A stretch of DNA of 37,179 nucleotides from Pelagibacteraceae bacterium AG-313-A04 (GTDB lineage: Bacteria; Pseudomonadota; Alphaproteobacteria; Pelagibacterales; Pelagibacteraceae). A program made the position numbers and the translations under genes. The DNA lies in the NCBI GenBank assembly GCA_003284275.1, contig QBVU01000007.1:1-37179 (forward strand). Reading direction: 5' to 3'. Positions 2,884 to 4,315 of this stretch are shown here, one piece after another. Each line of letters opens with the position of its first letter. The stretch's first letter is position 1. The notes under the pieces are model-generated. The model saw only the letters and a list, made by a program, of their open reading frames with translations, did not search any database and was not told the origin of the DNA.

Positions 2884-3798
2884 TTATTTATTAGTCAATT
2901 TATTTAATGCGTTATTTTTAAATAAATCTGCCTCTTTAATGTATCTTCTTACCATATCTACAGACTTATGCCCGGTCATTGCCATGATATTTCTTTCACT
3001 AGCTCCATATTCAGCTGTTGTGGTTGCAAAACCCGATCTAAGACTGTGACCAGCATATTTTTTTTCATCTAGACCTGCGCTTAATGCATGTTTTTTAATT
3101 ATTAAAGCTACATTTTTATCTGAAATTGGAAAAACTAAACTATTTCTATTTTCATACATCCAATTTTTAAGATGCTCTACAGGACAATACTCAATAAATT
3201 TAAAAGAGGGGATAGCTTTAGTCATTCCCTCTCCAGATTGGTCTGATTTTGATTTTTTGACAAATATTTTTACTCCTTCATTAACAAATTCAACATCATC
3301 TCTAGTAATAGCAACCAGCTCAGACCTTCTAAATCCACCTGAAAAACCTATTAAAATTAGTGATTTATCTCTAAGTTTTTTATGTTCACTAGCAGATGAT
3401 TTATCAATTACTTTAATAATATTTTTTAAGTCATTGAATAATAATGGTTTTTTTGCTTTTTGATGTACGCCTATTTGTCTTTTAATGCCCATTAAATTTT
3501 CCACTATTATAGGATGTTTGGTGTCTAGATAATGACCTTTATATTTATGCATTACATTAATTGAAGCTAAGCGCCTTCTAAGAGTACTGAATCTAGATTC
3601 TTTAGATAAATGAGTTAGATACAAAGATATTATTTTAGGTTCAGTAGGCATGCTTTGCAATCCATGCTTGGAGCAAAATAAAATAAAGTCATTGAAATCA
3701 GATTTATACGCTCTGATAGTATTTTTAGCCTTTGACATCTTTAAATTGTCTAAAGTTTCAATTTCTAGTTTTTTTATCTCAGTCGTTAAATCATTCAT
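2884..3798 (-). CDS. Tyrosine recombinase / integrase
   Basis: A 304-residue site-specific recombinase. Residues about 1-105 form a helical SAM-like core-binding domain and about 115-300 the catalytic domain. The full catalytic set is visible: Arg157 (GGFRRSEL), Lys184 (KKSKS), His251 and Arg254 (HSLRSG), His277 (TGHKS) and nucleophile Tyr286 (RRYIKE). Length and plan match Xer-like and integron-like enzymes without an arm-binding domain. The ATG at 3798 lies two bases from a perfect inverted repeat that looks like a recombination core site. An internal ATG at residue 21 is an alternative start. G+C is higher than in the glycan genes it faces. It could be an island integrase or a single-recombinase Xer system; I favour an element-borne enzyme. 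Confidence 0.93.
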   Translation of the reverse strand: MNDLTTEIKKLEIETLDNLKMSKAKNTIRAYKSDFNDFILFCSKHGLQSMPTEPKIISLYLTHLSKESRFSTLRRRLASINVMHKYKGHYLDTKHPIIVENLMGIKRQIGVHQKAKKPLLFNDLKNIIKVIDKSSASEHKKLRDKSLILIGFSGGFRRSELVAITRDDVEFVNEGVKIFVKKSKSDQSGEGMTKAIPSFKFIEYCPVEHLKNWMYENRNSLVFPISDKNVALIIKKHALSAGLDEKKYAGHSLRSGFATTTAEYGASERNIMAMTGHKSVDMVRRYIKEADLFKNNALNKLTNK

Positions 3799-3800
3799 AA

Positions 3801-3829
3801 ATTTCCGATAACCATTAATTATCGGAAAT
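3801..3829. repeat. Perfect 11-7-11 inverted repeat, dif-like recombination site candidate
   Basis: Left arm ATTTCCGATAA (3801-3811), spacer CCATTAA (3812-3818), right arm TTATCGGAAAT (3819-3829). The arms are exact reverse complements. Xer dif sites have 11-bp arms whose inner ends read ATAA and TTAT around 6-8 bp; this site has that design. It begins two bases from the recombinase ATG, so it could instead be an operator, or an mRNA hairpin that hides the GGA in front of the start. No second copy was found in the window. Confidence 0.65.
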
Positions 3830-3875
3830 AATATATTAAGTGATTTTAGATGTCAATACGTATAATTTTATACTA

Positions 3876-4040
3876 ATGATTAAATTTATTCTTCCTATAA
3901 TAGTATTTATAGCTGCTGTTTATGGAATTTCCTACTTCTGGACTAATTCAAGTTCAAAAGGCAAAAAAATGATAGCTATAGGCTTAATAATAGCTCTTAT
4001 AGTAGGCTTATCTCTAACAATTTACTTAATATTTGACTAA
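3876..4040 (+). CDS. Small two-helix membrane protein
   Basis: A 54-residue protein with two hydrophobic helices (about residues 4-18 and 31-52) joined by a short basic loop with SSSKGKK. I chose the ATG at 3876 because it sits at the start of the first helix. A GTG at 3840 in the same frame would add 12 residues that do not extend the domain. The stop TAA shares a base with the ATG of the alkyltransferase gene (TAATG), so the two are probably translationally coupled. No family is recognised. Being upstream of a DNA-repair gene does not by itself suggest a role. Confidence 0.6.
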   Translation: MIKFILPIIVFIAAVYGISYFWTNSSSKGKKMIAIGLIIALIVGLSLTIYLIFD

Positions 4041-4315
4041 TGAAGCTAGTGGGAACTGAATTTCAACTGAAAGTATGGGCTTATTTGAGGAAAATACCCC
4101 GTGGAAGTGTTAAAACCTACACTCAGGTAGCCAAAGGCATTGGAAAACCCCTTGCAGTGCGCGCTGTAGCTAATGCTATAGGAAAAAACCCCTATGCACC
4201 CAAAATTCCTTGCCATAGAGTTATAAGATCTGATGGATCACTTGGAGGCTATTCAGGCAAAGGAGGTGTAAAAACTAAGAGATTTTTACTAAAAAAAGAG
4301 GGTATAAGGCTCTAG
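4040..4315 (+). CDS. ogt: Single-domain O6-alkylguanine-DNA alkyltransferase (MGMT family)
   Basis: A 91-residue protein equal to the C-terminal DNA-binding/active-site domain of Ogt/MGMT (full proteins are about 160-200 residues). The acceptor cysteine is present in IPCHRVI, so it is not an alkyltransferase-like (ATL) protein, in which Trp replaces Cys. The helix-turn-helix Arg (AVRAVANA), the Asn hinge (GKNP), the GGYSGKGGVKTK loop and the Glu near the C-terminus (LLKKEG) are all visible. It should remove alkyl groups from O6 of guanine in one suicide transfer. G+C is 115 of 276 by my count (about 42%), far above the glycan genes upstream, which suggests transfer. It overlaps the small membrane gene by one base. 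Confidence 0.88.
   Translation: MKLVGTEFQLKVWAYLRKIPRGSVKTYTQVAKGIGKPLAVRAVANAIGKNPYAPKIPCHRVIRSDGSLGGYSGKGGVKTKRFLLKKEGIRL

Follow-up and report, generated by a model that had tools for sequence, protein, structure and literature searches.

In SAR11 bacteria, a short palindrome directly upstream of a tyrosine recombinase gene is very probably the chromosome dimer resolution (dif) site of a single-recombinase system of the Xer type, with the adjacent 304-aa recombinase as its sole enzyme. Few bacterial groups in the ocean are as abundant as SAR11. A 2009 survey by Carnoy and Roten, in the part of its text available, gives Pelagibacter ubique as having no dif/Xer system (PMC2731167). Furthermore, Pelagibacter is absent from the main text of Kono 2011 (PMC3025954) and of PMC8138268, the available passages of PMC7858055 and PMC3861242 deal with SAR11 or Xer in other contexts only, and no description of a SAR11 dif site was found in the literature searched. 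Against the 2009 survey's view, a site, an enzyme, and a terminus are now proposed at base resolution, and dimer resolution in streamlined genomes becomes directly testable. The features of known single-recombinase Xer/dif systems that were found here are one recombinase, a site of ∼30 bp with inverted arms, one site per chromosome, a location at the terminus in relatives, and adjacency of site and gene.

The window, meaning the whole stretch of 37,179 nucleotides of Pelagibacteraceae DNA that was analyzed, contains at positions 3801-3829 the sequence ATTTCCGATAA-CCATTAA-TTATCGGAAAT, in which the arms are exact reverse complements. The palindrome is separated by 2 bp from the ATG of the recombinase gene (3796-3798, minus strand). 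The perfect 11-7-11 arrangement described in the original prediction is confirmed from the sequence of the window (Table 1). Within the 959-kb genome that the window comes from (19 contigs, 87% complete), TTATCGGAAAT occurs just as the two arms, and the window holds no other perfect palindrome with 11-bp arms and a spacer of 6-8 bp. By itself, the palindrome is only mildly surprising: among 200 first-order Markov sequences as long as the window, 43 hold a perfect palindrome with 11-bp arms and a spacer of 6-8 bp, and 19 of the 200 hold one when the spacer is 7 bp alone. The weight of the argument rests on conservation and position, and it is because of these, not of the palindrome alone, that an origin by chance is excluded. 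The inner arms of E. coli dif, ATAA and TTAT, are like the SAR11 arms. The earlier statement that eight of eleven bases of the right arm equal those of the E. coli XerD arm is correct against the E. coli dif sequence.

Table 1. Positions in the window of the palindrome, its parts, the neighboring gene, and the putative expression signals.
Feature	Position	Strand	Remarks
Tyrosine recombinase, 304 aa	2884..3798	-	Sole PF00589 protein found in genome
Short uORF MVIGNL	3795..3815	-	TGA overlaps gene ATG
dif-like recombination site, perfect 11-7-11 palindrome	3801..3829	.	Minus-strand reading ATTTCCGATAA-TTAATGG-TTATCGGAAAT
Gene-proximal arm (half-site)	3801..3811	.	
7-bp central region	3812..3818	.	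Gene strand mostly TTAATKG
Outer arm (half-site)	3819..3829	.	Overlaps -10 element
-10 element TATTAT	3828..3833	-	17 bp from -35; enters outer arm
-35 element TTGACA	3851..3856	-	

A domain search identified a phage-integrase catalytic domain and a SAM-like N-terminal domain in the recombinase. Its genome gave one match to PF00589, in a search that was positive in 14 of 14 control genomes. The residues R157, K184, H251, R254, H277, and Y286 are invariant across 17 orthologues; their putative catalytic roles are assigned by alignment with XerD, with the lowest certainty for the lysine. Scores fall far short of the cut-offs of the curated models for XerD (75 bits, cut-off 330), XerC (69 bits, cut-off 335), XerS (40 bits, cut-off 267), and XerA (76 bits, cut-off 220), the last being the top NCBIfam model. 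The best sequence match in the PDB is XerD. A Foldseek comparison of the predicted structure placed Cre at the top, then XerA and XerH, with XerH-difH structures among the matches, and this ranking is supportive at most, given the middling quality of the structure model (mean pLDDT 72.4). Among 570 confirmed relatives, the named records in the best 80 are from SAR11 (Pelagibacteraceae), and include uncultured Pelagibacteraceae single cells, Candidatus Pelagibacter ubique SCGC AAA795-E07, and Pelagibacterales SAG-MED41, along with one record labeled Candidatus Puniceispirillum. In one single-contig genome (G216) the gene lies at 997,875-998,828. The xerD gene of two published expression studies is presumably the recombinase gene described here. 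In the available text of one of them, SAR11_1019, annotated as xerD, is induced 8.5- and 7.6-fold under sulfur limitation and recA 7.3- and 3.1-fold (PMC5069961); the available text of the other has xerD and recA up in light (PMC3090418).

The site adjoins orthologous recombinases in related genomes, as had been anticipated. A core pattern, GATAATTAATNGTTATC, was found with at most one mismatch in 119 of 169 genomes of the genus, at 125 places (one exact copy per genome and six extras with one mismatch), against 9 matches to a reversed control pattern. In 116 of these 119 genomes the site is right upstream of the recombinase and on the same strand. Two genomes have the site with no recombinase gene found (G024 and G109, where the site is at a contig end), and in a third (G028) the exact core (C2:66656) and a recombinase fragment (C7:2-367) are on different contigs, through either separation or an assembly error. 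Two others (G012 and G075) have the gene, with no site found when it was looked for, and the sole integrase of G130 is another, longer one. PF00589 matches occur in 120 of the 169 genomes, and exactly one in 110 of those 120. When loci were retrieved by their protein alone, 80 of them named and 30 from 12 genera, GATAA-TTN5-TTATC stood no more than 90 bp upstream of the recombinase in all 110. Across the family, the recombinase is present in 296 of 397 sampled genomes, in 121 of 140 near-complete ones, and in 13 of 14 genera. Its absence from 19 of the 140 near-complete genomes, with any PF00589 match in just three of these 19, reflects either assembly gaps or real loss; single contigs are absent from the 58 family genomes that are without a listed match to the recombinase, six of which have a PF00589 match.

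In these relatives, the site marks the replication terminus. The original prediction had looked to the flip in GC skew to locate the true dif, and the flip falls close to the palindrome: in all 14 relatives, from five genera, the site and the cumulative GC-skew maximum are 578-2,531 bp apart, over stretches of 40-400 kb around the site in genomes picked for long or closed contigs. The combined chance of such nearness, ∼10^-22 as a product per genome, is overstated because the genomes are related and most stretches are centered on the site. In G021 the maximum near the site is the maximum over 400 kb. A coarse tour of the skew around one closed genome (G195) gave a noisy curve in which individual 10-kb windows run counter to the trend. 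On the contig of the window just 3.8 kb lie between the site and the left end; the skew is near zero (0.006) over this stretch and weakly negative (-0.037), as expected, to the right. The site can also be used to locate the replication terminus in SAR11 genomes from sequence.

Searches for the gamma domain of FtsK were positive in 31 of 37 genomes of the genus and 19 of 24 of the sister family. The KOPS motif of E. coli, GGGNAGGG, points toward the site 24 times and away from it 0 times, with at least one copy in each of the 14 genomes. Pooled permutations of its letters also point toward the site more often (873 versus 251), and on this scale 24 of 24 has P ∼0.002 for hits that are not independent; the polarity is partly a matter of composition and counts as supportive only. 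A copy of GGGNAGGG at ∼3,050-3,130 bp from the site recurs in G021, G167, G034, G107, G071, and G195, and related genomes have the hit at ∼3,050 bp in common.

The upstream part of the site appears to be shared with a promoter. In 149 of 154 distinct regions a TTGAC precedes the GATAA core by 31-34 bp; in relatives TATTAY follows this TTGAC after 17 bp and enters the outer arm. Because the -35 box stands at this fixed distance, transcription is predicted to start inside the site, within its left arm, and bound recombinase should therefore block transcription. Autoregulation of the recombinase through a promoter that overlaps its own site is plausible, and to this extent so is the proposal that one element serves both recombination and self-control; the RNA hairpin through which that control was to act is unlikely. 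The overlap with a promoter-like sequence at a fixed distance, along with the symmetry of the palindrome, would suit a mere operator at which the recombinase, or some other regulator, represses the recombinase promoter and at which no recombination takes place. We regard this as improbable, since an operator gives no reason for a GC-skew maximum at most 2.6 kb away in 14 of 14 genomes. It is likely that the operator role is true in addition to the dif role, and not instead of it.

No XerC- or XerD-like proteins were seen in Pelagibacteraceae in PF00589 searches of the genome of the window and of 30 family genomes. These 30, from 12 genera, have exactly one PF00589 match in 24 cases, and in 8 of 11 for single-contig genomes, which were selected among genomes having a recombinase match. 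The extra matches, in G198, G200, G201, G208, G248, and G272, are in frames of 340-491 aa. Longer integrases, in frames of ∼345-465 aa, were also noted in G034, G185, G389, G130, G142, G010, G198, G208, and G200; such longer extra integrases of some SAR11 genomes probably belong to mobile elements. Three sister-family controls each have two proteins, of 305-314 aa and 133-156 bits, and matches to the recombinase of the window number two in 18 of 24 sister-family genomes and one in 6 of 24. Canonical dif, with up to three mismatches, was found in 0 of 14 Pelagibacteraceae genomes versus 14 of 22 from the sister family, a test that misses 8 of 22, which leaves the zero weak when taken alone. A better dif with separate XerC and XerD, which would have spoken against the original prediction, was found neither in the PF00589 searches of the family nor in the canonical-dif search of 14 family genomes. 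The simplest reading of these sequence comparisons is that XerCD/dif has been replaced in the lineage of the Pelagibacteraceae.

Gene and site might instead be a mobile element, a remnant of a plasmid or phage that inserted at the terminus, with the palindrome as its attachment site and no host function. The recombinase does have plasmid and viral relatives, and mobile elements are known to target dif, as stated in the available part of PMC9765430. We consider this explanation very doubtful: there is one exact copy per genome, the six extras among the 125 places all having a mismatch, a second copy is absent from the genome of the window, the module is present in 13 of 14 genera, and an XerCD/dif system to exploit is undetected.

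The surroundings of the site are variable. Divergent neighboring ORFs of 104 loci, chosen mechanically and clustered as proteins, form 12 groups that have no blastp link, while the site is constant; clustering of the flanks by nucleotide gave one uninformative cluster of 127, and the protein clustering was used instead. In the window, the divergent neighbor (4040-4315) is a methylguanine-DNA methyltransferase of which the DNA-binding domain, 91 aa long, is all that is left; a small ORF (3876-4040) comes before it. A gene like this methyltransferase is the divergent neighbor in 27 of the 104 related loci. The suggestion that the palindrome is the attachment site of the adjacent glycan/repair island, which does lie close by in the window, can be set aside as having next to no probability, given that the genome has no second copy to bound an island, that the site is constant while its neighbors in relatives fall into 12 groups, and that in relatives it is at the terminus. 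Just as little credit is due to an RNA hairpin that governs translation of the recombinase by burying the GGA before its ATG, as the fold has -13.4 kcal/mol if the whole site is transcribed but -2.1 kcal/mol if transcription begins where predicted, in the left arm, and the position at the terminus is left unexplained. The short uORF that had been pointed out, with its ATG in the loop and its TGA over the gene start, is present by sequence. Its ATG is in the center in 123 of 154 distinct regions and the frame reaches the gene start in 103 of 154; it is possibly a by-product of the conserved TTAATGG center.

The other reading in the original prediction, a one-enzyme Xer-like resolution site, is strongly supported by its place beside orthologues, its terminus position, and XerC and XerD going unseen. 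We infer binding, cleavage, dimer resolution, dependence on FtsK, autoregulation, and the direction of capture of the module. In a dif site of this type, one recombinase monomer would sit on each half-site, and in a dimer of sister chromosomes the two sites would be paired to give a recombinase tetramer. The tetramer would then swap strands across the 7-bp center in two tyrosine-mediated steps and so restore monomers, with the asymmetry of the center (TTAATGG or TTAATTG) setting the direction of the site. At the septum, delivery and triggering of the reaction are probably the work of FtsK, which keeps its gamma domain. As the promoter enters the site, bound recombinase probably represses its own gene.

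Different site-specific recombination systems share some of these properties. Cre is a plasmid dimer resolvase that acts at loxP, with a 13-8-13 arrangement. Cre, the top structural match, and probably the plasmid 'site-specific integrase' family, whose members are sequence relatives carried on plasmids, belong to dimer-resolution systems of plasmids, whereas the SAR11 module is chromosomal, family-wide, and at the terminus. Canonical XerCD/dif, which includes the best PDB sequence match XerD, uses two recombinases and a 28-bp dif with a 6-bp center, in contrast with one recombinase and a 7-bp center in SAR11. The archaeal XerA/dif system has a single recombinase, and XerA is reported to be active without FtsK (PMC5357621, available portion). 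The same portion describes XerS/difSL of streptococci and lactococci, where one tyrosine recombinase likewise has a dif-like site that adjoins its gene, but XerS has 356 aa, an 11-bp center, and unequal arms, against 304 aa, a 7-bp center, and symmetric arms in SAR11. XerH/difH of Helicobacter and Campylobacter also has a single recombinase with its site near the gene (PMC9765430, available portion); we liken it to the SAR11 system by fold and description, and it differs in having 354-362 aa, imperfect arms, and a center of 6-10 bp (PMC5357621, available portion) compared with 304 aa, matched arms, and 7 bp here. Also comparable is XerL/dif of the Legionellales, a single recombinase in a group thought to be without Xer/dif, with long uninterrupted arms (10 and 12 bp) and a site near the GC-skew maximum. 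The same description sets it apart, since the Legionella gene is >400 kb from dif while the SAR11 gene adjoins its site, and the catalytic tyrosine is Tyr387 in XerL and Tyr286 here. In that study the same argument from GC skew was followed by bench proof (PMC9765430, available portion for all points on XerL).

The SAR11 sites have arms of two types, A (TTCCGATAA-7-TTATCGGAA) and B (ATTACTAAYGATAA-7-TTATCAATAGTAAT), and the symmetry of the B arms is imperfect. Among 152 distinct sites, arm positions 1-5 and 9 are complementary in 151 or 152, and position 8 in 147, as T-A in 99 and, with both sides changed, as A-T in 48. Positions 6, 7, 10, and 11 are complementary in just 99-123, partly because of the imperfect B arms. 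Type A sites go with enzymes of 293-308 aa (42 rows) and type B sites with enzymes of 317-326 aa (48 rows). The difference in length is mainly a loop of 12-13 residues in the catalytic domain, near residue 223 of the protein in the window. B-arm enzymes have this loop, as do plasmid relatives, and A-arm enzymes lack it. As plasmid relatives have a like loop, it fails to predict the type of arm outside SAR11. In an AU test, a single clade for A or for B was unrejected (p 0.405 and 0.441). SAR11 offers half-sites and recombinases in naturally matched pairs, a series in which specificity can be studied. At one locus (L041, on contig C14 of G070) a B-type site with a disrupted right arm is beside an intact recombinase, and a second integrase is ∼4.5 kb away on that contig.

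Relatives outside SAR11 point towards the origin of the system. Plasmid relatives of the recombinase number 1660 records at E ≤1e-10, and 20 that were listed have 34-42% identity and come from Bacillota, Chlamydiota, Proteobacteria, and others; a further 17 viral contigs and 5 phage records complete the non-SAR11 relatives found. Seventeen of the 20 listed plasmids were examined, the second P. polymyxa and two Sphingopyxis macrogoltabida records being omitted. In 8 of the 17, a site like TTCCGATAA-(6 or 7)-TTATCGGAA is 40-134 bp upstream of the gene start, and an equally good match was obtained in 0 of 40 shuffles for each. The Niallia taxi plasmid has a perfect TTCCGATAA-7-TTATCGGAA; one mismatch is found in Alicyclobacillus dauci and A. 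curvatus, two in A. acidoterrestris and Methylomonas (the latter with a 6-bp spacer), and four in Protochlamydia, Sphingopyxis, and Blastomonas, of which the last two have 6-bp spacers and near-identical sites. The Niallia and Methylomonas records are unannotated at this point, and their gene starts were set by us. A ninth candidate, at -485 in a Rubrobacter plasmid and with six mismatches, was not counted. No convincing upstream site was found for L356, L358, L359, L360 (a weak one), L361, L365, L369, and L371; L356, the plasmid relative closest by identity, is thus among the nine of 17 that have none.

The plasmid relatives, which we take to resolve multimers, and the like sites in 8 of 17 of them suggest a captured plasmid resolution module. 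Most likely the SAR11 gene and site are such a multimer-resolution module that replaced XerCD/dif, with the capture running from plasmid to chromosome. This suggests how the resolution module of a plasmid may come to serve in chromosome maintenance. We lean, with modest confidence, towards a fuller history in which the ancestor of the Pelagibacteraceae dropped XerCD/dif and adopted a one-enzyme plasmid module, comprising the recombinase and a palindrome with a built-in promoter, as its only dimer-resolution system. FtsK/KOPS would have been re-wired to it, and half-site specificity would later have switched between the two arm types alongside the 12-13-residue loop.

In a quick tree with long branches the SAR11 recombinases group together as a single clade (SH-aLRT 96); three viral contigs are closest to it (97), and plasmid enzymes surround them. 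The SAR11 clade with its plasmid and viral relatives stands apart from the sister-family Xer rows. The nearest relatives outside the SAR11 clade, at 34-35% identity, are three IMG/VR contigs (L252, L258, and L259), and no like palindrome was seen when looked for upstream of their genes. Among all 17 viral relatives, palindromes with a spacer of 6-8 bp within 400 bp upstream were found in L265 and L268 only. The palindrome of L268, at -375, is GC-rich and of 13-6-13 form. In L265 the palindrome, at -371 relative to the recombinase match, is of perfect 13-7-13 form, and its inner arms read GATAA/TTATC.
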